Shown in pieces: positions 4,831-64,000 of a stretch of 64,000 nt of DNA. Below the pieces are notes generated by a model. That model was not told where the DNA came from, did no database searches, and saw only the letters and a list, made by a program, of their open reading frames with translations. The DNA is from Planctomycetota bacterium (lineage in GTDB: Bacteria > Planctomycetota > Brocadiia > Brocadiales > Bathyanammoxibiaceae): the NCBI GenBank assembly GCA_016209685.1, contig JACQVQ010000008.1:255778-319777 (forward strand). The letters are read 5' to 3'. The position numbers and the translations under genes were made by a program. How positions within the stretch are numbered: the stretch's first letter is position 1; each line of letters opens with the position of its first letter.

Positions 4831-4858
4831 GTAGGGGCACGTTGCAACGTGCCCCTAC
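4831..4858. repeat. Family A palindrome, intergenic copy
   Basis: A perfect 28-base palindrome whose left half is GTAGGGGCACGTTG, in the rodA-dapF gap. The identical 28 bases recur inside the glycerate kinase gene at 6591-6618. No T-tract follows, so it is not a typical intrinsic terminator. Confidence 0.9.
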
Positions 4859-6481: not shown

Positions 6482-7975
6482 GTGACGCCACCGATGAAGC
6501 CGACAAGTGAGCTTAGGGGACAGGCCCTGGAGATATTTTACCATGCCCTCGGGGCAGTGGACCCGGCCAGGCTCGTGAGGGAGAGGGTAGGTAGGGGCAC
6601 GTTGCAACGTGCCCCTACCCTGAAGATAGATAGTAAATCTTACGCCCTCAAAGAATTTAATGGGGTCTATGCCGTGGGTTTCGGCAAGGCCTCTGCCCCC
6701 ATGGCCCAGGCCCTGGAAGAGATACTGGGGGAGTGGTTGAAGGGGGGGATTGTGGTAGTAAAAGAGGGCCATGCCCTCCCGCTAAAAAAGATAAAGATAT
6801 TGGAGTCAGGCCACCCCGTACCTGACAGACGCTCTCAGGAGGCGGCCATGTCCCTGCTGGATTGGGCCAATACTGAGGTTCAAAGGGTTAATCCGCCTGA
6901 GGCGGAAAGAGTTCAAGGGTTACGGGCACTCCAGACAAAAAGGGCCCTGGTCTTCTGCCTGGTTACAGGTGGCGGCTCTGCCCTCCTGTGTGCCCCCCCT
7001 GGGGATATAAGTTTAGAAGAGGTAAAGACGGCAACCTCGCTCCTCCTGGCCTCGGGGGCAGAAATAAAAGAGGTGAATACCGTAAGGAAACACCTGTCCC
7101 TGATACACGGGGGGAGGCTGGCAAGGGCCTTATATCCTGCTGTGGTTATCAATCTAGTCGTCTCAGACGTGGTGGGTGACGTACTGGACATGGTCTCCTC
7201 AGGCCCTACGTTACCCGACCCCAGTACTTATAAGGGGGCTTTAGAAATAGTGTCCAAATACGGGCTTGCAAAACGGCTGCCTGAAAGGGTATATGAATAC
7301 TTGAAGAGGGGCGTCAGTGGAGAGGTAGAAGAAACCCCTAAGGAAGGGGACGTCTGTTTCCAGGACGTCCACACCTTTCTCCTGGGCAGTAACATGAGGG
7401 CCCTGGAGGCGGCTAAGGAAAAGGCGATAGAATTAGGTTATAATACCCGCATCCTGGGTTCTTCTTTTACGGGTGAGGCCAGAGAGGTGGCCAGGGTCTT
7501 TTCCTCTAGGGCAAGGGAGTGTAGGGAGGGGGATAATCCCCCTTCTGGGCCAGCCCTGGTGGCGGAGCACCAGGGCTATAGCATTGGGGCTCTGCCCCCA
7601 ATGCTGAACCGTTCTGGTTCAGGGCCAGCCTGCCTCCTTGCGGGTGGTGAAACCACTGTTACCATTAGAGGTAACGGGAAGGGTGGTAGGAACCAGGAAT
7701 TTGCCCTGGCCAGTGCTATGGAGATAGAAGGGCTGGAGGGGGTTGTAATACTTAGCGGCGGTACGGATGGTAACGATGGCCCTACGGAGGCGGCAGGTGC
7801 AGTGGTGGACGGGACTACGTGCAGGAGGGCGAGGGCGCACGGTATGGAACCCGAGGATTTTCTGATGAGGAACGACTCGCATACCTTCTTCTGCCGTTTG
7901 GGGGACCATATAATTACCGGTCCCACCCGCACCAATGTCATGGATATTATGTTGTGCCTGACAGGAGGCCAATGA
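6482..7975 (+). CDS. Glycerate 2-kinase (GckA/MOFRL type) with repeat-encoded inserts
   Basis: Phosphorylates D-glycerate to 2-phosphoglycerate. 497 aa against about 420-450 for the family. Conserved blocks: VGFGKASAPMA near 65, VTGGGSALL near 162, VVSDVVGD (bind/catalysis), the C-terminal MOFRL domain with GGRNQEFALA and LSGGTDGNDGPTEAAGA. The excess length comes from three repeat-derived inserts: a family A palindrome read as GRGTLQRAPT; family C plus B read as QRVNPPEAERVQG; and four consecutive hairpins read as DNPPSGPALVAEHQGYSIGA and onward. All keep the frame. GTG start at 6482; an ATG at 6494 is the alternative. The stop overlaps the next gene by ATGA, opening a six-gene operon. Confidence 0.9.
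   Translation: MTPPMKPTSELRGQALEIFYHALGAVDPARLVRERVGRGTLQRAPTLKIDSKSYALKEFNGVYAVGFGKASAPMAQALEEILGEWLKGGIVVVKEGHALPLKKIKILESGHPVPDRRSQEAAMSLLDWANTEVQRVNPPEAERVQGLRALQTKRALVFCLVTGGGSALLCAPPGDISLEEVKTATSLLLASGAEIKEVNTVRKHLSLIHGGRLARALYPAVVINLVVSDVVGDVLDMVSSGPTLPDPSTYKGALEIVSKYGLAKRLPERVYEYLKRGVSGEVEETPKEGDVCFQDVHTFLLGSNMRALEAAKEKAIELGYNTRILGSSFTGEAREVARVFSSRARECREGDNPPSGPALVAEHQGYSIGALPPMLNRSGSGPACLLAGGETTVTIRGNGKGGRNQEFALASAMEIEGLEGVVILSGGTDGNDGPTEAAGAVVDGTTCRRARAHGMEPEDFLMRNDSHTFFCRLGDHIITGPTRTNVMDIMLCLTGGQ
6591..6618. repeat. Family A palindrome inside glycerate kinase
   Basis: Base-for-base identical to the 28-base palindrome at 4831-4858, but located in frame within the coding sequence. 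Identity over the full length argues for recent copying. Confidence 0.9.
6878..6920. repeat. Family B palindrome nested in family C repeat, in glycerate kinase
   Basis: TCCGCCTGAGGCGGA (6892-6906) sits between two TTCAA(A)GGGTT units, all in frame in the coding sequence. Read as NPPEAER with VQ(R/G) on both sides. Confidence 0.75.
7528..7622. repeat. Four consecutive hairpins inside glycerate kinase
   Basis: Back-to-back inverted repeats in coding sequence: GGGGGATAATCCCCC (7528-7542), AGCCCTGGTG/CACCAGGGCT (7552-7577), AGCATTGGGG/CCCCAATGCT (7580-7605) and GAACC/GGTTC (7608-7622). They encode a roughly 35-residue insert between the helix after GEAREVARVF and the ACLLAGGETT strand. Confidence 0.75.
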
Positions 7976-9268: not shown

Positions 9269-9775
9269 ATGAACTGGCTTGACTCCATTTTTATAGGTTT
9301 CCTGTGTATGGCGGCGGCCTTTGGGTTCCTGAGCGGGGTACTCTGGCAGGTCTATAGTCTTATATGCCTTGTGGCCGCCTATTTTTCCTCTACGTTTCTA
9401 CATCACTACCTCGTTGGCCCCCTGTCCGCCAGGTGTAGTCCTGAGACCGCCATCCTACTGAGTCACATTATTACCTTTGTGGCCACCTTTGTCCTCATCT
9501 GCAGTCTTGGACTGCTTATGAGAAGGGCCTTAAACCTTTATCCCGGGTTCTGGGGTGGCCTGTTCGGTGCCTTCCTGGCACTGTTTCAGGGAATGCTCCT
9601 GTGCGGGGTCGTTGCCGTGGGGCTGATGGAGTACAGTAGTAACGGTCTGAGGCAAGAGGTAGAGTCCTCTGCCGTAGTCTCCGCCCTTGCGAAGGGTACC
9701 AGGGTCTTTTACGCACTCATCCCTAGTGATATAAAGAACGGTGCGAGGTCTCTGACAGGGGATGCCGAGAAGTAA
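9269..9775 (+). CDS. cvpA: CvpA-family membrane protein
   Basis: 168 aa with four membrane segments. The N-terminus MNWLDSIFIGFLCMAAAFGFLSG matches the CvpA pattern (N-W-x-D-x-x-I, then G-F-x-x-G). CvpA proteins are envelope proteins of unclear biochemical role, named for colicin V export in E. coli. It starts 17 bases after the AsmA-like gene and overlaps the MnmE-like gene by 14 bases, so it is part of the same operon. Confidence 0.85.
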   Translation: MNWLDSIFIGFLCMAAAFGFLSGVLWQVYSLICLVAAYFSSTFLHHYLVGPLSARCSPETAILLSHIITFVATFVLICSLGLLMRRALNLYPGFWGGLFGAFLALFQGMLLCGVVAVGLMEYSSNGLRQEVESSAVVSALAKGTRVFYALIPSDIKNGARSLTGDAEK

Positions 9776-11099
9776 TGATACGATAGCCCTTATCGCCACA
9801 CCGCTGGGGGAGGGGGGGATTGGTGTGGTGCAGGTCTCCGGCCCTCAGGCGCTGGAGATGGCCGGTAAGCTCTTCAGGAGCAGGCGGGCGACGTCCGCCT
9901 CAGGTGGACTTCTGCCTGAGATAGACCTTACTAAGGCCCAGAGCGGGAGCCTCTTTTATGGGACAATACATGATAGTGAGGGGCTTATAGACGAGGTACT
10001 TGTGAGTATCTGGAGGGCAAACGGGGGTCCCACTGGTGGGGGTCTGGTGGAGATAAATTGTCATGGGGGCATAATGGCAGTACAAAAGACCCTGGAGGCC
10101 TTTCTAAAGATGGGTGCCAGGAAAGGCAAATGGAAAGAATTACTTGATGGAGTTGCCCCAGTACAGGAAGGGCTGGACCTCATACAAAGAGAGGCATTAC
10201 TCCTCCTCCCCAGGGCAAAGACCAGGTTGTCTGTCAAGATGCTCCTATCGCAGTATCAGTCCGCCCCTGGTGGACTCTCTCACGAGGTCAGGAAGTTAGG
10301 GGAGGAGGCAAAAAGGATTAAGGAGAAGCTGATGGGGTGCGACACTCCCGGGGTGGCGTCTGCCTTCCATTTGCTACTTTCTAGCCTGACTGCCCTGGTA
10401 AATTCCAGCCCCTTCGGACTGGCCCTCGTGAACCCTTTGAAGGTGACCATTGCCGGAGCACCCAACGTGGGGAAGTCTACGCTCTTTAATGCCCTCTTAA
10501 GGGAGGACAGGGTACTGGTACACCATGAGCCAGGCACTACCAGGGACTATATCATTGAGTTCATTTCTATAGAAGGGATGCCCTTAGAACTTATTGATAC
10601 CGCCGGTCTCAGGGAGGCAGAGGGGGTGGAAGGGGTAGGGGTAGAATGGGCCAGGGCCCTCCACCAGGAGGCAGATAAGGTCATACTGATGCTGGATGCC
10701 TCCAGGCACATCACCCAGGAGGAAGAAGGACTTATAGGTACACTGGATACCAGCAAGGTAGTGCCTGTACTAAACAAGATAGACTTGGTAGGGTCACGTT
10801 GCCCGCCTGAGGCGGATGCCCTACAATTATTTTCCATACCTCCCTGTGAGGTATCAGCCCTGAGTGGGAAGGGACTAGACGGTCTTAGAAGGATGCTCGT
10901 CAAGGAATTCCTCCCGGAGATAGAGAGAGGCCCCCACCGCCCCATCGTCTTCACCCAGAGGCAGAAGGGGCTGTTGGAAGAGGCCCTCAGTGTAGCCAGG
11001 GGATTACCCAGGGATATAATTGATTGCTTTACTGCCAGCGAGGTTTGTCAGAAACTAGACCAACTGGAGAAGCTCCTCCTTGGTGTGCTTAAGGAATGA
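9762..11099 (+). CDS. Divergent MnmE-like tRNA-modification GTPase lacking the C-terminal Cys motif
   Basis: MnmE with MnmG modifies U34 of certain tRNAs. This 445-aa protein has the domain order of MnmE: a TrmE-N-like domain (DTIALIATPLGEGGIGVVQV, GGLVEINCHGG), a helical region, and a full G domain: P-loop GAPNVGKST (232-240), GTTRD (258-262), DTAGLRE (279-285) and NKID (338-341). Two differences from canonical MnmE stand out: the N-domain stretch after NCHGG is shortened and lacks the usual A-x-PGEFTxRAF-NGK block, and the protein ends LLLGVLKE with no FCIGK cysteine motif. Three family B repeats lie in frame (SASGG near 45, SAPGG near 167, CPPEAD near 347). It may be a degenerate paralogue or a lineage-specific form. 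Confidence 0.8.
   Translation: MPRSNDTIALIATPLGEGGIGVVQVSGPQALEMAGKLFRSRRATSASGGLLPEIDLTKAQSGSLFYGTIHDSEGLIDEVLVSIWRANGGPTGGGLVEINCHGGIMAVQKTLEAFLKMGARKGKWKELLDGVAPVQEGLDLIQREALLLLPRAKTRLSVKMLLSQYQSAPGGLSHEVRKLGEEAKRIKEKLMGCDTPGVASAFHLLLSSLTALVNSSPFGLALVNPLKVTIAGAPNVGKSTLFNALLREDRVLVHHEPGTTRDYIIEFISIEGMPLELIDTAGLREAEGVEGVGVEWARALHQEADKVILMLDASRHITQEEEGLIGTLDTSKVVPVLNKIDLVGSRCPPEADALQLFSIPPCEVSALSGKGLDGLRRMLVKEFLPEIERGPHRPIVFTQRQKGLLEEALSVARGLPRDIIDCFTASEVCQKLDQLEKLLLGVLKE
9893..9909. repeat. Family B copy 1 in mnmE-like gene
   Basis: GTCCGCCTCAGGTGGAC, a near-perfect palindrome read in frame as SASGGL in the N-terminal domain. Confidence 0.65.
10258..10276. repeat. Family B copy 2 in mnmE-like gene
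   Basis: AGTCCGCCCCTGGTGGACT, a decayed palindrome read as SAPGGL at the start of the helical domain. Confidence 0.5.
10801..10818. repeat. Family B copy 3 in mnmE-like gene
   Basis: CCGCCTGAGGCGG (10803-10815), the opposite orientation of copy 1, read as CPPEAD just after the G4 motif NKID. Confidence 0.65.
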
Positions 11100-14692: not shown

Positions 14693-14956
14693 GTCTCTAT
14701 GCGATATAATATACCAGAAAGGAGGGGTGATAAAAACACTTTTTGCGTGGAGTATTATAGATAGGGGTAATGCTTTAATTTCAGTCTTAAAAGCCAGGGA
14801 TTTGGGGCTAGGGGGTAGGGTGTAGCAAAAAAACTAATCTCAATCCCTACCCCCTACTCCCGAAAACATTGTAAATTGTAAATTTCAAAATTTCTAATTT
14901 ACAACTTACAATTTCCAATTCTTTTCCCTCCCTCCCCCCTACTCCCTATTTAGCCC
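14693..14956. repeat. Repeat-filled intergenic region before the tRNA cluster
   Basis: No gene seen. Contents: an AT-rich stretch that probably holds the minus-strand promoter of the PLD-like gene (TATATTATATCGC near 14700); a G-rich/C-rich hairpin element (about 14810-14862: GGGGCTAGGGGGTAGGG paired with CCCTACCCCCTACTCCC); a 17-base imperfect inverted repeat ATTGTAAATTGTAAATT / AATTTACAACTTACAAT (14868-14912); and another C-rich remnant of the same family (about 14926-14950). Confidence 0.6.
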
Positions 14957-14984
14957 TTGAAAAAGGCGGAGACATTATTATAAT
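14957..14984 (+). promoter_or_regulatory. Sigma70-type promoter for tRNA-Thr(TGT)
   Basis: -35 TTGAAA (14957-14962), 16-base spacer, -10 TATAAT (14979-14984), ending 12 bases before the tRNA. Position and match to consensus make this a strong candidate. Confidence 0.75.
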
Positions 14985-14996
14985 TAAAGTTTTCAG

Positions 14997-15071
14997 GCTA
15001 GCGTAGCTCAATGGCAGAGCAGCTGTTTTGTAAACAGCAGGTTGTGGGTTCAAATCCCGCCGCTAGCTCCA
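14997..15071 (+). tRNA. tRNA-Thr (anticodon TGT)
   Basis: Cloverleaf with acceptor GCTAGCG/CGCTAGC, anticodon loop TTTTGTAA (TGT), T-arm GTGGGTTCAAATCCCGC and encoded CCA. First of the tRNA-Thr/Tyr/Gly/Thr-tuf set, the order seen at E. coli tufB. Confidence 0.95.
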
Positions 15072-15205
15072 TTTTGTGAGGCACAGGCTACCCATCTATC
15101 GGAAATCAGCTATCTGTTGTCAGGGGTCAGTGGTCAGTTATCTGACGACCGAGGACTGACAACTGAAAATTGAAGACCTGTAATAGAGGACGAGGGTGTA
15201 AGAAT

Positions 15206-15291
15206 GGGGAGATACCCGAGTGGCCAAAGGGGACAGACTGTAAATCTGTTGGCGAAGTCCTTCGGAGGTTCGAATCCTCCTCTCCCCACCA
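15206..15291 (+). tRNA. tRNA-Tyr (anticodon GTA)
   Basis: Class II tRNA with long variable arm; acceptor GGGGAGA/TCTCCCC, anticodon loop CTGTAAA (GTA), CCA encoded. The 135 bases separating it from tRNA-Thr hold a GTCAGTGGTCAGTT/GACTGACAACT-type repeat rather than a compact spacer. The minus ORF 15134-15355 is a tRNA artefact. Confidence 0.95.
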
Positions 15292-15298
15292 TTATAAC

Positions 15299-15375
15299 TA
15301 GGGAGTAGGGGGTAGGGAGTAGGGAAAAGTAGTAAAAAAGACTGCTAATCCCCAACCCCTACCCCCTATACCCAG
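15299..15375. repeat. G-rich/C-rich hairpin repeat between tRNA-Tyr and tRNA-Gly
   Basis: GGGAGTAGGGGGTAGGGAG-TAGGG (a potential G-quadruplex of four G-runs), an A-rich centre, then CCCCAACCCCTACCCCC as the complementary arm. The same architecture recurs at about 14810-14862 and 53547-53613. Confidence 0.7.
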
Positions 15376-15387
15376 GTCTTTAAAGGT

Positions 15388-52228: not shown

Positions 52229-52483
52229 TCTCTCCATCCCAGTCTCATGGTAACGGGCCCTTTCGGTATTTTCTGCCAGCACAGTTTCTTTGTAGAGTAT
52301 ACAAACATGGGTTATGCTTTTTAGTCTAAACCTTACTAGGGATGTAAGGGGGCTTTGCCCCCAGTGCCAGAGGCAGATCCTCCTCAGGCGTACTCACCAC
52401 AAAGTCTGTAGGGGCGACCCGGCGGGTCGCCCTACATTTTGTAACCCATGTTTATAGACAGCACAATTTTTTATATTTATAGT
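52229..52483. repeat. Intergenic region with 151-base inverted-repeat element
   Basis: No gene. AAACATGGGTTA (52303-52314) and its perfect complement TAACCCATGTTT (52442-52453) bracket a family B remnant (GATCCTCCTCAGGCG) and a family A palindrome (52408-52435, left arm GTAGGGGCGACCCG). The overall shape is like a small MITE, but no target duplication is evident. Confidence 0.5.
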
Positions 52484-52568: not shown

Positions 52569-53564
52569 ATGGTGAAGTTCATTTACAATGGTGTGATGGG
52601 TTGCACAGTTACCCTGGGCCTTTTATTGTTGATAGCCCTCCCCGCGGCCTCAGCAGAAAAGCCCGCCCTCCGCATCGCCTACCTGCCCATCCTGGACCAC
52701 CTTACCCTACCCATTGCCTACGAGCTTTCCGATAAAGGGAAATTTGAGCACCTCACGCTACAGCCAGTAAAATACACCTCCTGGACGGAACTTGTAGATG
52801 CAGTAATCACCGGGAAGGTGGATGGGGCATTTATGCTTGTCCCACTAGGCATGCACCTCAGACAGAAAGGGACGCCCATCAAATTGGTCTTGCTTGGGCA
52901 CAGGAACGGCTCTGCCCTTGTAGTAAGTCCAACCACAAAGTCAATAGAAGGGCTAAGGGGGGGTCTCCTGGCCATACCCCATCCCTTCTCCATGCAACAT
53001 ATTAACCTCTATAAATATCTGGTAGAAAAAGGACGTCTCCGCAAGGAAGACTTTACTATCCTTGACATGGAACCGCCAGACATGGCACCTTCCCTGGCCA
53101 GGGGGGAGATTGACGGCTTCCTGGTGGCCCAGCCCTTCCCTACCCTGGCCGAGGTAGCTGATACAGGGAGGATTATGGCCTATTCCTGTGAGATTTGGGA
53201 AGGTCATGTGGACTGTGCCCTGTTTCTTTTGGAATCCGTGTTAGTCGCTAACCACGACAGAGTAGGGGAGCTGATAAAGGTACTGGTAGATGCGGGAAAA
53301 TTTATTGAGTCCAATCCCAGAAAGGCCGCCAGGCTGGCCGTGCCTTATATTGGACTTGACGAGGAAATCATCTATAAATGCCTGACTAACCCCCCAAGAG
53401 GGATTACGTACAACAAGCTTGTGCCCCGGATGGAAGAGTTGGAGGAGGTACAGGGGTATCTTATTCGTATGGGGCTGTTTGAGAAGGAGATGTCTTTAAA
53501 GGAACTTATAGACGACAGTTTTGTAAGGGCTGTGCATGAAGAAGGCCAGGGGACTAGGGAGTAG
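52569..53564 (+). CDS. NMT1/NrtA-like ABC substrate-binding protein
   Basis: 331 aa: Sec signal peptide (cleavage near ASA at about 30), then the periplasmic binding fold of the NMT1/THI5/NrtA/CmpA type (LRIAYLPILDHLTLPIAY, DGAFMLVPLGMHLRQKGTPI, GHRNGSALVV, GEIDGFLVAQPF). Ligands in the family include nitrate, bicarbonate, taurine-like sulfonates and pyrimidines; this one cannot be resolved. No permease or ATPase follows, but a sensor kinase-like HD-GYP protein does, so it may be a ligand sensor rather than an importer part. The last residues and the stop come from a GGGAGTAGGGAGTAG repeat. Confidence 0.82.
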   Translation: MVKFIYNGVMGCTVTLGLLLLIALPAASAEKPALRIAYLPILDHLTLPIAYELSDKGKFEHLTLQPVKYTSWTELVDAVITGKVDGAFMLVPLGMHLRQKGTPIKLVLLGHRNGSALVVSPTTKSIEGLRGGLLAIPHPFSMQHINLYKYLVEKGRLRKEDFTILDMEPPDMAPSLARGEIDGFLVAQPFPTLAEVADTGRIMAYSCEIWEGHVDCALFLLESVLVANHDRVGELIKVLVDAGKFIESNPRKAARLAVPYIGLDEEIIYKCLTNPPRGITYNKLVPRMEELEEVQGYLIRMGLFEKEMSLKELIDDSFVRAVHEEGQGTRE

Positions 53565-53613
53565 GGAGTAGGGAGTAGTAAGATTGCTACCCCCTACCCC
53601 CTGGTCCCTGACC
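53547..53613. repeat. G-rich/C-rich hairpin repeat after the NMT1-like gene
   Basis: GGGGACTAGGGAGTAGGGAG and following G-runs, spacer TAGTAAGATTGCTA, then CCCCCTACCCCCTGG. Potential G-quadruplex plus hairpin; the first TAG within it is the gene's stop codon. Confidence 0.7.
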
Positions 53614-53629
53614 CCTACAGGTATTAAAC

Positions 53630-57078: not shown

Positions 57079-57107
57079 GTAGGGGCGACCCGCCGGGTCG
57101 CCCCTAC
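57079..57107. repeat. Family A palindrome, intergenic
   Basis: Left arm GTAGGGGCGACCCG, right arm CGGGTCGCCCCTAC around one base: a perfect 29-base element. Uninterrupted version of the nested element at 60265-60315. It lies just after the stop of the minus-strand lipoprotein gene. Confidence 0.85.
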
Positions 57108-57110
57108 TAC

Positions 57111-57704
57111 TTAATCAACCCTTGCCCGGAACCCAAATTTATAGTCCTTTTTCTCTTCTCCTATCTTAAGTGGCATTACAAGATAAAAGGTGGTGCGGTC
57201 CCAGGAGTCAACGTCAAAAGCGGTCTTTAGTTCCGGGAGGAGGGGCTTGGTCTTCCGTCGCCCGATGGAACGGCTCACATGGTCAGAAGGCAGTACCCAC
57301 GTCTCCAGCCTTGTACCAGGGGCAATAATGGTGGCGGCCTGTGGTTTGTCCTTTTCCTCAGGTTTTACGTCCTGGGCAGTCACCTTATGTACCGCACCAT
57401 ATCTATCCTCGTACTCCACCTTACTCCAATCCAGTTCTACGGGTTGCGCCCCTTTGTTTTCTATAGTAAGGTCAATCCTCTCCCTGCTGGGCCTGAAGGC
57501 AAAACGCAGGGCATCGTCCTCAAAATCCAGTGTGCCCGTGGATGGGTACATCATTGTGAACCTGTACTGGTACAGGTTTGAGATATCAGTCCCCCTGGCA
57601 CAACCAACCAGGAGCAAACAGTAGACAGTAGGCAGTAGGCAGTAGGCAATAAGCACTGAGCAGTGAGCCGTAAGGGACTTTTTACTGCCTACTGTCCAGA
57701 CCAT
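57111..57704 (-). CDS. Lipoprotein with repeat-encoded signal peptide
   Basis: 197 aa. The N-terminal hydrophobic segment AYCLLPTVYCLLLVGC ends in a plausible lipobox (LVGC) and is encoded by CAGTAGG-type tandem repeats (57615-57670). The mature part has a beta-sandwich look (FTMMYPSTGTLDFEDDALRF, IDLTIENKGAQPVELDWSKV, TTFYLVMPLKIGEEKKDYKF). No family recognised. ATG at 57704 overlaps the truA 3' end by 16 bases; a later start would lose the export signal. Confidence 0.65.
   Translation of the reverse strand: MVWTVGSKKSLTAHCSVLIAYCLLPTVYCLLLVGCARGTDISNLYQYRFTMMYPSTGTLDFEDDALRFAFRPSRERIDLTIENKGAQPVELDWSKVEYEDRYGAVHKVTAQDVKPEEKDKPQAATIIAPGTRLETWVLPSDHVSRSIGRRKTKPLLPELKTAFDVDSWDRTTFYLVMPLKIGEEKKDYKFGFRARVD
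57615..57670. repeat. CAGTAGG tandem repeat encoding a signal peptide
   Basis: Units AGTAGACAGTAGGCAGTAGG and CAATAAGCACTGAGCAGTGAGC. Read on the minus strand they give the hydrophobic core of the lipoprotein signal. A further unit (TACTGCCTACTGTC) lies at 57687-57700 near the start codon. Confidence 0.65.
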
Positions 57705-58606
57705 GTGCCGTTCTCTGTATAATTGACCTTAAGAAGGCACAACCCCCTGGCAGGTGCAGTTGGGCCTGCGAGCGAACGGTCCCTGGCCTCCACCACTCTC
57801 TTGAATTCCACCAGGCCCACCTTCCCACTCCCCACCAGGAGGAGCGTCCCGACGATACCCCTTATCATCTTGTGCAGGAAACCATCCGCTTCTATAAAGA
57901 AATGGATGTACCTCTTAGTCTTGGAGTCCATTAATCCGCCTGAGGCGGACAATGGATAATGCCCAGCGACGTCCGCCTCAGGCGGACTGGACTTCAAAAT
58001 TTCAAGGGATTTTATGGTACGGACGGTATTCTCCTTATTGTGGGCCTCCACGCAGAAGGCCCTGAAATCGTGCCTTCCTAATAGATGTTGGGCGGCCTCT
58101 TTCATCCTCTCTACGTCCAGGGGACAATGGAAGTGGTAGTAAAAATTCCTGTTTATGGCCCTGGGTACTGGGTCATTCAGGATGGTGTAGCGGTAGACCT
58201 TGCTTTTGGCATGAAATTGGGCATGGAACTCCTCGGATACCTCCCCGGCAGAGCGTACGACAATCTCTCTGGGCAGGTAATGATTCAGGGCAGGCACGAG
58301 TCTTTCCGCAGGCAACCTGGAAGAGGTCTTAAAGTTTGCCACCTGGCCCAGGGCGTGTACCCCTGCATCAGTCCTGGAGGCCCCGTATACCACCACCCAT
58401 TCCCCTGTAATCTTGTGGATGGCCTCCCTCAGGCATGCCTGGATGGTGGGGATTCGGGATTCGGAATTCGGAGTGCTGAATGTGGAATGTGCAATCTCCG
58501 CACTCCCCACTCCGCACTCCCCACTCCGCACTCCTTTTAGCCTCTGTTCCTGCCAGCCTGAGAAGTTTGTGCCGTCGTATTCAATCAGGAGCCGGATGTT
58601 ACGCAT
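57689..58606 (-). CDS. truA: tRNA pseudouridine synthase TruA with repeat inserts
   Basis: Makes pseudouridine at positions 38-40 of tRNA anticodon arms. 305 aa versus about 250-270. Catalytic Asp in GASRTDAGVHALGQ (about D81), KVYRYTI, FLHKMIRGIVGTLL. Two repeat-derived inserts: VRSGECGVGSAEIAHSTFST and on, from GGAGTGC tandem units near residue 25-50; and SPPEADVAGHYPLSASGG near 205-222, from two family B palindromes flanking a short spacer. Both lie in loops and keep the frame. Confidence 0.93.
   Translation of the reverse strand: MRNIRLLIEYDGTNFSGWQEQRLKGVRSGECGVGSAEIAHSTFSTPNSESRIPTIQACLREAIHKITGEWVVVYGASRTDAGVHALGQVANFKTSSRLPAERLVPALNHYLPREIVVRSAGEVSEEFHAQFHAKSKVYRYTILNDPVPRAINRNFYYHFHCPLDVERMKEAAQHLLGRHDFRAFCVEAHNKENTVRTIKSLEILKSSPPEADVAGHYPLSASGGLMDSKTKRYIHFFIEADGFLHKMIRGIVGTLLLVGSGKVGLVEFKRVVEARDRSLAGPTAPARGLCLLKVNYTENGTWSGQ
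57935..57987. repeat. Paired family B palindromes inside truA
   Basis: TCCGCCTGAGGCGGA (57935-57949) and GTCCGCCTCAGGCGGAC (57971-57987), in opposite orientations around a 21-base spacer, both in frame. Confidence 0.8.
58452..58534. repeat. GGAGTGC tandem repeat inside truA
   Basis: GATTCGGGATTCGGAATTCGG units followed by CCGCACTCCCCACTCCGCAC units, all coding on the minus strand near the TruA N-terminus. Confidence 0.75.
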
Positions 58607-59221: not shown

Positions 59222-60244
59222 TCAGACAGATACCCGCAGTTGCACCAGCCTCTCGGCAATCTGCACGGCGTTCAAGGCGGCGCCCTTACGGAGGTTGTCG
59301 CTGACTACCCAGAGGTTTAGCCCGTTCTCTATGGATAAATCCTCACGTATCCGTCCCACGAAGGTCTCGTCGCGTCCTGCCGCAAGGGTGGCAAGGGGGT
59401 AGTGTTGCTTCTGGGGGTCGTCATAGACTACTACCCCCGGTGCCCTGGAGAGTATCTCCCTGGCCTCTTTTGCCGTGAGTTTCTTCTCTGTCTCTATATT
59501 CACTGACTCGCTGTGTCCCCTCACCACAGGGACCCTGACGGCAGTGGCCGTGACCCTTATGGACTGGTCGCCCATAATCTTCTTGGTCTCATCTATCATC
59601 TTCACCTCTTCTGAGGTGTAGCCATTGGGTAAAAAGGCATCAGATTGGGGTATCTGGGGGATACAGTTGAAGGCTATCTGATGAGGGAATAGCTTCCTCT
59701 TGTATTTTCTTTCGTTGAGGATGGCCTCAGTCTCCTCCTCCAGTTCTAAGATGGCCTCCCAGCCGGCCCCGGATACGGCCTGATAGGTGGATACCACCAC
59801 CCTCTTTACCCTGGCGGCGTCATGTATGGGCTTGAGGACCAGTACCATCTGTATGGTGGAACAGTTGGGGTTGGCGATAATGCCTTTGTGTCTGGGTATC
59901 TCCTCCGGGTTAACCTCTGGCACTACCAGGGGTACGCCCTCGTCCATCCTGAAGGCGCTGGTGTTATCTACGGCCACCGCTCCAGCCCGTACGCAGTGGG
60001 GCACGAAGGCCCTGGAGACAGAGGCCCCTGCACTAAAGAGGGCTATTTCTACGCCGCTGAAAGACTCCGGGGTCAGTTCCTTTACCGGTACCTCTTTTCC
60101 TTTAAAAAATAGGGTCTTCCCAGCAGAACGTCTGGAGGCGAGGAGGTGGAGGTCCTTGATTGGAAAATTTCTCTCCTCCAGTATACGCACCATCTCTGTG
60201 CCTACTGCCCCTGTTGCCCCCACTATTGCCACATTGACTGCCAT
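59222..60244 (-). CDS. asd: Aspartate-semialdehyde dehydrogenase
   Basis: Reduces aspartyl phosphate in lysine/DAP, threonine and methionine synthesis. 340 aa: NADP fold GATGAVGTEMVRILEERNFP, active-site NPNCSTIQMV (Cys near 135), QAVSGAGW, and the late R-x-x-x-x-x-G-H-S (RVPVVRGHSESV). Works upstream of the dapF found at 4.9 kb. Confidence 0.96.
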   Translation of the reverse strand: MAVNVAIVGATGAVGTEMVRILEERNFPIKDLHLLASRRSAGKTLFFKGKEVPVKELTPESFSGVEIALFSAGASVSRAFVPHCVRAGAVAVDNTSAFRMDEGVPLVVPEVNPEEIPRHKGIIANPNCSTIQMVLVLKPIHDAARVKRVVVSTYQAVSGAGWEAILELEEETEAILNERKYKRKLFPHQIAFNCIPQIPQSDAFLPNGYTSEEVKMIDETKKIMGDQSIRVTATAVRVPVVRGHSESVNIETEKKLTAKEAREILSRAPGVVVYDDPQKQHYPLATLAAGRDETFVGRIREDLSIENGLNLWVVSDNLRKGAALNAVQIAERLVQLRVSV

Positions 60245-60264: not shown

Positions 60265-60315
60265 GTAGGGGCGACCCGCCGGCTGAAAGTCCGCCTTAGG
60301 CGGGGTCGCCCCTAC
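60265..60315. repeat. Nested palindromes: family B inside family A
   Basis: Family A arms GTAGGGGCGACCCGCC and GGTCGCCCCTAC are split at the centre by about 22 bases containing AGTCCGCCTTAGGCGG, a family B element. The uninterrupted version is at 57079-57107. Confidence 0.85.
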
Positions 60316-60323
60316 AAAAGTTG

Positions 60324-61274
60324 TTATCGGTTCCTTATCAGTATCTCGTCACTCATTCCAAGAGATGCCTTCGTCCCATCAATATCCCTCAGAAATCGCC
60401 TTGCATCATTGGGGTAACCTGCCGTGGGCTTTAGTCCTGGGAGTCTTTCCTGCCAATACTTGTTGAATAGCCTTAAAAACAGCTCTCTTAGATATTTACT
60501 GTACATGGAGGCCAGGGCCACGGGGAGGTGCTTGTCCTCCGCTCTTATTATGAAAGAGACCTTCAGTCTCCGAGGGCCGTCTCTGAGTTCGTAAGAGGAG
60601 ACGTCCGACCCTTCCAAAAGGACATTAACTTTGCATTTACTAAAGGCACTAGAGAGCAGGGTAGCGTATCGGTTGCGACCGCCGTGCCTGTCGCAGAGTA
60701 TTTCTAGTTGAGGATATTCTCCCCATAAACTGCTTATCAGCTTAGCACAGTTATCAAAGAGGAGCAAGGCCTTGTTGCCGCAAGAGTCTATTCCTTTATT
60801 AAATTCGTAAGGAGACATGACTGACGCCCTTGCCCCCAGAAACCTTATGCCCTGTGAAAACAGGACTTCCTCCAGTAGTTTACGGTACCTGGCAAGCCCT
60901 TCGGCGGCAGTCAGGGGTAGGCTTAATTGCATATCATGGTGCCATGGGTATAATTTTAGCTGGCCTTCGTCGTAGCAGTGGAGTGCCTCCAGCAGCCGTT
61001 TGAAATCTCCTGCGCCCCCAATGCATCCCTGAAAGGCCAGGACGCCCACCTCCAGGCGACGGAGCCCTCTGCCTGAGGCATAGAGGCGTTTACTATCGGC
61101 CACGGCCACGTGCAGGGGCGACTTACTGGTTGCCCCTACTACCGCCCCCTTTAGTATCTGCCATAGGTTGCCGTCCACCTCGTGGTCCTTTACCTCAAAG
61201 GCCACTGCGGTAATCACCAGTGGACCAAGGGTAGGACCGTAACCTGCTTCATCCACCCCTACCAGGATTGCCAT
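60324..61274 (-). CDS. Divergent RNase HII-like nuclease
   Basis: 316 aa. N-terminal VGVDEAGYGPTLGPLVITAV matches the DEAGxGPxxGP motif of RNase HII, with further acidic residues in AVADSKRLY and LEILCDRHGGRNRYA, and SMYSKYLRELFL near the end. About 100 residues longer than typical RNase HII, with a long middle region. Probably cleaves RNA in RNA/DNA hybrids; the exact activity is uncertain. Contains a decayed family A repeat read as VVGATSKSPLH between the first and second motifs. Confidence 0.75.
   Translation of the reverse strand: MAILVGVDEAGYGPTLGPLVITAVAFEVKDHEVDGNLWQILKGAVVGATSKSPLHVAVADSKRLYASGRGLRRLEVGVLAFQGCIGGAGDFKRLLEALHCYDEGQLKLYPWHHDMQLSLPLTAAEGLARYRKLLEEVLFSQGIRFLGARASVMSPYEFNKGIDSCGNKALLLFDNCAKLISSLWGEYPQLEILCDRHGGRNRYATLLSSAFSKCKVNVLLEGSDVSSYELRDGPRRLKVSFIIRAEDKHLPVALASMYSKYLRELFLRLFNKYWQERLPGLKPTAGYPNDARRFLRDIDGTKASLGMSDEILIRNR
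61113..61139. repeat. Decayed family A element inside the RNase HII-like gene
   Basis: CAGGGGCGACTT-ACTGG-TTGCCCCTAC, related to GTAGGGGCGACC/GGTCGCCCCTAC, in frame in coding sequence. Confidence 0.6.
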
Positions 61275-62845: not shown

Positions 62846-64000
62846 ATGAAGTCACTGCTTAAACTCCTCCGGGAAAATAACAAGTTCAGAGCCGTCCAGA
62901 AGGCCATTGTGGGAGTGGCCCTGCCACCTGGCGGAGAGATAAGGATAGGAGGGCTTTGGGGTTCTTCTGCCGCCTTTGTGTTGGCCGGTTTAGCCGAAAA
63001 GACCCATTCGTGGATACTAATAATTACTAGTAGCCTGGAGGAGGCGGAGGAGGCCAGGGATGACCTGAACCTTTTCCTTCCTGGTAGTGCTACTATCTTT
63101 GAGCCATGGGAAGATTTTCCTGTGACAGGAGACGATGCCTCCGTAGGGGTGACCCACCGGGTCGCTCCTACCGCCCAACACCTGCAGGTCCTCCATCCAC
63201 TACTATTTCCAGAAGACCCACCTCATGTGGGTGTCGGGGCCACACCTGACACCCGTACTAAGATTATCGTCTGCCCTATCCAGGCCCTCCTCCAGAAGCT
63301 GCCACTACCGGGAGACCTCACAGAAAACACCCTCCAGGTGGTGGTAGGAAAGGATCTGGGGCAACAGGAGGTGGTAGGGTGGCTGGTGGATAGGGGCTTC
63401 AAGGGTGTAACTATGGTGGAGGCCCCTGGGGAGTTCAGCCTCAGGGGATGTATCCTGGACGTCTTTACCCATTCTTCTGAGTTCCCCTACCGCCTGGAGT
63501 TCTTTGGAGATAGGGTGGAGTCTATCAGGCTTTTCAGTCCAGATACGCAGACCTCTATAAAGAACCTCAAAGAAGGGAATATACTTGCCCTGGATTGTAA
63601 GGGTTTGACTAATCAGACCCCTACAGCGGGGGCTGGTACCCTTCTGGATTATCTCCCACATGGGGCCTGGGTAGTGCTGAAAGAGCATGAGGTTATACGG
63701 GAAAAGGCTAAAAAGGTATCGCAGTCCATACCCTGGCTCTATACCCATGAGGAGGTGGGCAAAAAGTGGTTACAATACAACAGACTTTTCCTCTCTTCCC
63801 TGCCCTTTACAGATAGCGGGGACAACCCCGCCGCCATCCACAATTTTGAGGTGGAATCTATAGAGCGTTTTGGTCCAGGGCTTAAAGAGACCTTTGCGGA
63901 GTTAAGGAATCTCTCCCCCCAGGTTCGGCAGACAATAGTCTTTTGTAACAACGAGGCGGAAGAGAAGCGTTTTCAAGAGTTGTTGAGTGGGGAAGGTCTG
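62846..64000 (+). CDS. mfd: Transcription-repair coupling factor Mfd, N-terminal part
   Basis: Open from the ATG at 62846 to the window edge (385 codons, no stop), so absent from the ORF track. MKSLLKLLRENNKFRAVQKA start, then the UvrB-homology region: GLWGSSAAFVLAGLAEKTHS, FEPWEDFPVTGDDAS, KIIVCPIQALLQKLPLPGDL, and GFKGVTMVEAPGEFSLRGCI with LDVFTHSSEFPYRLEFFGDR (the Mfd GE(F/Y)xxRGxIxDVF block). A stretch at about 100-130 is encoded by a family A palindrome (63143-63171) and a further inverted repeat, replacing the usual SP-x-x-DI-x-R segment. Mfd removes stalled RNA polymerase and recruits UvrA. Confidence 0.9.
   Translation, partial: MKSLLKLLRENNKFRAVQKAIVGVALPPGGEIRIGGLWGSSAAFVLAGLAEKTHSWILIITSSLEEAEEARDDLNLFLPGSATIFEPWEDFPVTGDDASVGVTHRVAPTAQHLQVLHPLLFPEDPPHVGVGATPDTRTKIIVCPIQALLQKLPLPGDLTENTLQVVVGKDLGQQEVVGWLVDRGFKGVTMVEAPGEFSLRGCILDVFTHSSEFPYRLEFFGDRVESIRLFSPDTQTSIKNLKEGNILALDCKGLTNQTPTAGAGTLLDYLPHGAWVVLKEHEVIREKAKKVSQSIPWLYTHEEVGKKWLQYNRLFLSSLPFTDSGDNPAAIHNFEVESIERFGPGLKETFAELRNLSPQVRQTIVFCNNEAEEKRFQELLSGEGL
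63143..63171. repeat. Family A palindrome inside mfd
   Basis: GTAGGGGTGACCCA-C-CGGGTCGCTCCTAC, imperfect version of the 57079-57107 element, in frame and read as VGVTHRVAPT. A second inverted repeat (GACCCACCTCATGTGGGTGTC, about 63208-63228) follows in the same insert. Confidence 0.75.

Follow-up and report, generated by a model that had tools for sequence, protein, structure and literature searches.

How does one short palindrome come to lie inside another? In the 64,000-nucleotide stretch of Planctomycetota DNA analyzed here (the window), positions 60265-60315 hold a 51-bp nested element in which a 29-bp palindrome of family A (GTAGGGGC...GCCCCTAC) is broken by a 22-bp hairpin element, B2, in the order GTAGGGGCGACCCGCCGG-CTGAAAGTCCGCCTTAGGCGGG-GTCGCCCCTAC (18+22+11 bases). 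The first-pass annotation had described a family A element split at its axis by a family B element, with an unsplit version at 57079-57107. Both the split and the unsplit version were confirmed: taking out the middle 22 bp leaves the exact 29-mer of 57079-57107, and since the 18+11 flanks rebuild that 29-mer exactly, B2 is an insert of 22 bp without target loss. The split is not exactly at the axis as described; the entry point, whose placement carries a 2-bp ambiguity, lies 1.5-3.5 nt away. Folded as single-stranded DNA, the 51-mer still forms one long hairpin. It lies between asd and an RNase H-like gene, in a short intergenic gap, and starts ~20 bp ahead of the start codon of asd, just beyond a Shine-Dalgarno-like AAGGAG (Table 1).

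Table 1 Features of the nested element, its surroundings and other copies in the window.
Feature	Position	Strand	Remark
Interrupted A palindrome, left 18 of its 29 nt, GTAGGGGCGACCCGCCGG	60265..60282	+	
B2 insert, 22 nt, CTGAAAGTCCGCCTTAGGCGGG	60283..60304	+	missing at the orthologous G001 site
Hairpin core of the B2 insert, CCGCCTTAGGCGG	60291-60303	+	
Interrupted A palindrome, right 11 of its 29 nt, GTCGCCCCTAC	60305..60315	+	
Unsplit A, subfamily of the split A at 60265-60315, GTAGGGGCGACCCGCCGGGTCGCCCCTAC	57079..57107		
Aspartate-semialdehyde dehydrogenase gene (asd)	59222..60244	-	
RNase HII/HIII-like gene	60324..61274	-	end 9 bp from the nested element
A copy, subfamily of 57079-57107, centre GGC for GCC	52408..52436		
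Decayed A copy, subfamily of 57079-57107	63143..63171		end assumed from the 29-nt length
A, CACGTTG subfamily	4831..4858		empty form of the commonest composite
A, CACGTTG subfamily	6591..6618		inside the MOFRL/DUF4147 (glycerate-kinase-like) gene
Decayed A[B1] composite, GTAGGGTCACGTTG-CCCGCCTGAGGCGGA-TGCCCTAC	10788..10824	+	in frame in the TrmE/MnmE-like GTPase gene
B1 in the tRNA pseudouridine synthase gene	57935..57949		in frame; between CCATT..AATGG arms
Second B1 in the tRNA pseudouridine synthase gene	57972..57986		between CCAG..CTGG arms

The closest relative, G001, belongs to the same genus, and its asd protein is 98% identical to that of the window genome. At the site orthologous to 60265-60315 it carries an unbroken 29-mer A; no A was found at this site in G006 and G005. 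Copies of A differ in their centre, which is GCC or GGC on a given strand, and the G001 copy has the opposite orientation to the window copy. The rebuilt window A matches the G001 copy at 27 of 29 positions plus the flipped centre, and the 57079-57107 copy exactly. By parsimony, A was probably in place before the 22-bp element arrived. The alternative is that G001 later lost the insert precisely, and G001 is the one relative on which this polarity is based. A second ortholog pair (L180 in the window genome, L271 in G001) sets GTAGGGGCACGTTGCAACGTGCCCCTAC of G001 against ...ACGTTG-TCCGCCTGAGGCGGA-TGCCCC..., so that A is split in the window genome and unsplit in G001 at two matching places. The earlier proposal that family B inserts is directly supported by these two sites. 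Elsewhere, the presence or absence of A itself (L141:9018 and L150:2989 versus G001 L274 and L260) resembles ~10 nt swapped for a 28-mer, not a clean insertion. At L187 versus G001 L253 and at other loci, further palindrome families (GCCCTGAACC..GGTTCAGGGC; GTAGCCGCAGGCTTTAGCCTGCG) occupy sites of B in the sister genome, as if the palindromes were replacing one another.

The window genome is an incomplete assembly of 2.02 Mb in 14 contigs; the locus statistics cover stretches amounting to 1.24 Mb of it and 0.64 Mb of G001. Pattern searches of the 2.02 Mb returned 219 A-type matches of GTAGGGGC..GCCCCTAC and 235 CCGCCTNAGGCGG cores, 21 of which lie inside A in 8 distinct junction types. This genome-wide check of A for nested B, suggested by the first-pass annotation, compares with a random expectation of ~0.7 nested cores (235 x 219 x 29 bp / 2.02 Mb) and a Poisson P of ~1e-6 for the 8 distinct junction types alone, and reversed-pattern control searches gave 0 each for the A, core and nested patterns. 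The A pattern requires both 8-nt arms, which favours central insertions, and a free-position search agrees. One junction, GTAGGGGCAC[G/A]TTG-TCCGCCTNAGGCGGA-TGCCCCTAC, is common to 13 of the 21 nested copies, which may be copies of one ready-made composite, and the remaining 8 copies show 7 further junction types. The same junctions, plus extra ones (GACCCG-B1-TCGCC, GACCGG-B1-TCGCC and CACGAG-B1-TGCC), were found in G001, G002 and G006, and similar nests occur in G001, G002 and further genera. Nesting in these genomes is thus a general, recurrent phenomenon, and the doubts raised beforehand, that the case might be isolated or its junction a chance similarity, did not hold.

Family B was found to comprise two forms that join their targets differently. 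B2 is 22 nt long ([C/T]TGAAA[A/G]TCCGCCTNAGGCGGG) and lies with zero loss in three A targets, namely the window element (29+22), GTAGGGGCAATTCATG-B2-AATTGCCCCTAC (28+22) and GTAGGGGCAGG-B2-GTAACCCCGCCCCTAC (27+22). An AATT[B2] composite is present in ~10 copies with one junction, and few empty counterparts occur in the stretches of the genus examined. The commoner form, B1, is 15 nt long (TCCGCCTNAGGCGGA) with a TNA loop within CCGCCTNAGGCGG; the element ends are constant among B copies. At 13 clean ortholog pairs between the window genome and G001, chosen and read by eye from alignments, B1 replaces target bases instead of simply inserting, with a loss of 6 bp in 9 pairs, 5 in two, 3 in one and 6-7 in one (6-bp targets lost include GTACCG, AGCTCC, GAACCC, TAGCTA and CTACCG). 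These pairs include both coding and non-coding DNA. The coding cases could be filtered by selection for net length changes in multiples of 3, but the non-coding cases also show 5-7. Within A, the free-position search gave a target loss of mostly 4-6 nt for B1 versus 0 for B2. No target site duplication, the criterion for a MITE, was found for B2 beyond a placement ambiguity of 1-2 bp, and B1 shows target loss.

Whether B seeks out the centre of palindromes, as the first-pass annotation suggested for the loop or centre of cruciform DNA, received a divided answer. With any position in any known A sequence allowed, 32 of 33 insertions are 3.5 nt or less from the axis of A, although these are not 33 independent events and the preference is carried by ~8 independent junctions. 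B2 junctions have a stem of 8 or more at 13 of 30 unique loci versus 0.6% of random sites. About ten of these 13 loci are copies of a single AATT composite, and in other repeats B2 can also be found off-axis. Outside A, the flanks of B pair (stem of 5 bp or more) at ~20% of sites versus ~10% in permuted controls, in both genomes. Palindromes are therefore favoured, yet most B copies lie in non-palindromic DNA; the near-axis position holds for A and is not supported as a general rule. A palindrome axis at every B copy was ruled out, ~80% of B sites outside A having no flanking palindrome.

Some nests go more than two levels deep. The window genome holds A[E[B1]] at L164:3811, where E is another palindrome family, and the matching G001 site, L254, holds A[E] without the B1. 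G001 also carries A[B1[C]] at L219:4059, with a 24-bp element of family C (CCTTCGCTACGCTCAAGGGCAGGC) at the B1 axis, and B1[C[B1]] at L224, the counterpart of L174 in the window genome, which has B1[C]. Exact 24-bp C inserts recur within B1, but when inserts of any kind between its TCCGCC and GGCGGA halves were counted, no clear excess over reversed controls emerged (30 vs 21 and 26 vs 27). Very large nests of 58-80 bp, with two inner hairpins within one A, were noted at G000:C8:404131-404210 (L036), L164:3811 and L254:1133.

B1 also occurs inside proteins, where it often reads in frame as Ser-Ala-Ser-Gly-Gly (SASGG). In HutI-, HypD- and TatC-like genes, compared with the G001 or window-genome ortholog, it is in frame. 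The imidazolonepropionase of B. subtilis (2bb0) is without the 3 extra residues of the HutI homolog, which makes B1 the derived state in HutI; polarity was set for this gene only, the HypD solved-structure alignment being ambiguous at the site. In the window, the tRNA pseudouridine synthase gene (57689-58606, minus strand) carries two in-frame B1 copies (PPEADVAGHYPLSASGG), and in the TrmE/MnmE-like GTPase gene (9762-11099, plus strand) the A[B1] composite directly follows the NKIDL motif, with another SASGG stretch near the N terminus. A second nested case claimed earlier, B within family C in the kinase gene, was not identified as described: in the MOFRL/DUF4147 kinase-like gene (6482-7975), A and a B1 (about 6893) lie apart. 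Runs of GGGAGTAGGG / CCCTACCCCC repeats were also seen at 14797-15387 and 53550-53622 of the window, around the tRNA cluster and elsewhere.

No transposase or other enzyme could be linked to A or B. The window genome has three Y1_Tnp genes, of which one clearly encodes a REP-associated tyrosine transposase (NF047646, 4e-59) and the others divergent ones, and within the loci examined none of the three is flanked by A on both sides. One Y1/REP-type transposase gene (L047:1378-1974, minus strand) carries an A in frame, read as VGAGFKPAPT. Across 39 genomes, which are related so that the points are not independent, the densities of A and B correlate (rho 0.69), and Y1_Tnp density rises with neither A nor B density (rho -0.22 and -0.37); these data do not support RAYT number as the driver of A and B. 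B1 is present in 17 of 294 sampled genomes of the phylum, with ~100 copies in two families outside the order, a patchy spread that is easier to reconcile with a mobile element than with a functional site passed on by inheritance.

Our preferred reading, held with a little better than even confidence, is that B2 is a small non-autonomous mobile palindrome that inserted loss-free beside the axis of an older mobile A, the nesting proceeding via hairpin opening. The simplest timing for the entry of B2 (22 bp) into A (29 bp) would be after the lineage parted from the sister species G001. The short palindromic families A, B1, B2, C, D and E would multiply and land in one another, giving nests up to three deep. 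A target palindrome might extrude as a hairpin or cruciform and be opened near its tip, where a copy of another hairpin element would be joined in, B2 without loss and B1 with ~6 bp lost, as if a short stretch were trimmed before sealing. An A with B in its loop keeps intact outer arms, with which the composite may spread as a whole. The sequences themselves show the presence/absence differences between the sister genomes, the near-axis position in A, the replacement of ~6 bp by B1, and the recurrence and depth of the nests; we infer the opening of hairpins, the enzyme and the joint spread of composites. More tentatively, the genome may carry a whole community of micro-palindromes that do without a transposase and multiply by one defined reaction, the exchange of a 6-bp target for a 15-bp hairpin, with hairpin tips favoured, so that nests build up recursively and proteins gain SASGG in frame; we regard this wider version as possible, if rather doubtful.

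The insertion reading competes with templated short-patch replacement during replication or repair, in which a short single-stranded B copy would anneal by microhomology, or serve following a template switch, and take the place of a few bases. We consider this a credible though unlikely alternative. It needs no dedicated mobile-element machinery, with hairpins favoured because they stall forks, and it accommodates the 3-7 bp swapped out by B1 with no target duplication, the two sites at which A itself appears to replace ~10 nt, and the absence of a transposase correlate. The loss of 6 bp in 9 of the 13 pairs nevertheless seems too regular for random microhomology patches, and neither the zero loss of B2 in three different A targets nor the constant element ends is in its favour. 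A literature search on short-patch double illegitimate recombination gave no paper under that phrase.

That the genome's own REP-type tyrosine (HUH, Y1) transposases move both A and B seems improbable. One clear and two divergent transposases of this type are available, and A ends in GTAG, as do REPs linked to such transposases (PMC3733652, PMC8266576); the GTAG of A, however, is paired within a near-perfect palindrome and is not an unpaired tag, B is without GTAG, the transposase genes examined are not flanked by A on both sides, and Y1_Tnp density is uncorrelated with A or B. Slightly less probable still is a single ancient A+B composite that arose once and spread as one mobile repeat, in which case nesting would not be ongoing. 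The junction shared by 13 of 21 nested copies (CAC[G/A]TTG-B1-TGCCCC) and the single junction of AATT[B2] at many sites would suit such a history, which is contradicted as a full explanation by at least 8 junction types in the window genome, others in G001, G002 and G006, the different A subfamilies involved, and the split versus unsplit state at the window site and L180/L271. The incompleteness of the 14-contig assembly could suggest an artefact, but artefact or chance similarity is refuted by the 21 cases against ~0.7 expected, by the control pattern count of 0 and by the same nest classes in two other assemblies of the genus, leaving it a negligible probability.

Several known systems share parts of this behaviour. 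Family A is like the GTAG REP elements in being a short high-copy palindrome with terminal GTAG (219 matches in 2.02 Mb); GTAG-tagged REPs associated with RAYTs are likewise of high copy number, measure 20-40 bp and form subfamilies that differ by compensated stem changes (PMC3733652, PMC8266576). Unlike them, A is a near-perfect palindrome whose GTAG pairs with CTAC in the folded element, no RAYT gene is flanked by A on both sides (3 Y1_Tnp genes, loci examined) and transposase number does not track copy number. The flank profile of 141 B copies shows neither a GTAG nor a CGTC tag. A few REP families lie within other palindromes in A. variabilis, T. roseum and H. neapolitanus (PMC3733652); orthologous empty sites and recursive nesting set the window genome and G001 apart from the GTAG REPs. 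Another parallel comes from the organelle genomes of Volvox carteri, where short palindromes are often inserted in one another and make larger composites, some at several places, as the A/B nests do (PMC2670323). The Volvox repeats are organellar, 11-79 nt long and with TAAA/TTTA loops, where B1 has TNA, and we found neither orthologous empty sites nor a constant target loss described for them.

Insertion sequences that target REPs, such as IS1397, ISKpn1, IS621 and ISPpu9 (PMC1525189), resemble B as mobile DNA preferring a palindromic repeat as target, but these are full elements with a transposase, whereas B is 15-22 bp and encodes none. The pneumococcal BOX, RUP and SPRITE repeats are small interspersed repeats inserted into one another (PMC3049150); they are larger than B and MITE-like, and BOX and RUP duplicate their target site. 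Rickettsia palindromic elements are palindromic inserts kept in frame within protein genes (cited in PMC3733652). B1 is like them in its in-frame insertion in conserved genes. Rickettsia palindromic elements measure ~100-150 bp, whereas B1 is 15 bp and replaces ~6 bp. A literature search for the exact A and B repeat strings gave nothing relevant, and we found no description, for a bacterium, of palindromes nested recursively alongside orthologous empty sites, or of a 15-for-6 replacement.

There is no settled account of how palindromic repeats this small spread in bacteria. In the window genome and G001 the elements are tiny and abundant and differ from one sister species to the other, and the empty sites are available, which lets the insertion reaction be read off directly. 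Testable clues to a mechanism come from the fairly regular 15-for-6 swap and from the axis preference in A, and the in-frame inserts in proteins extend the effect of these palindromes to coding sequence.
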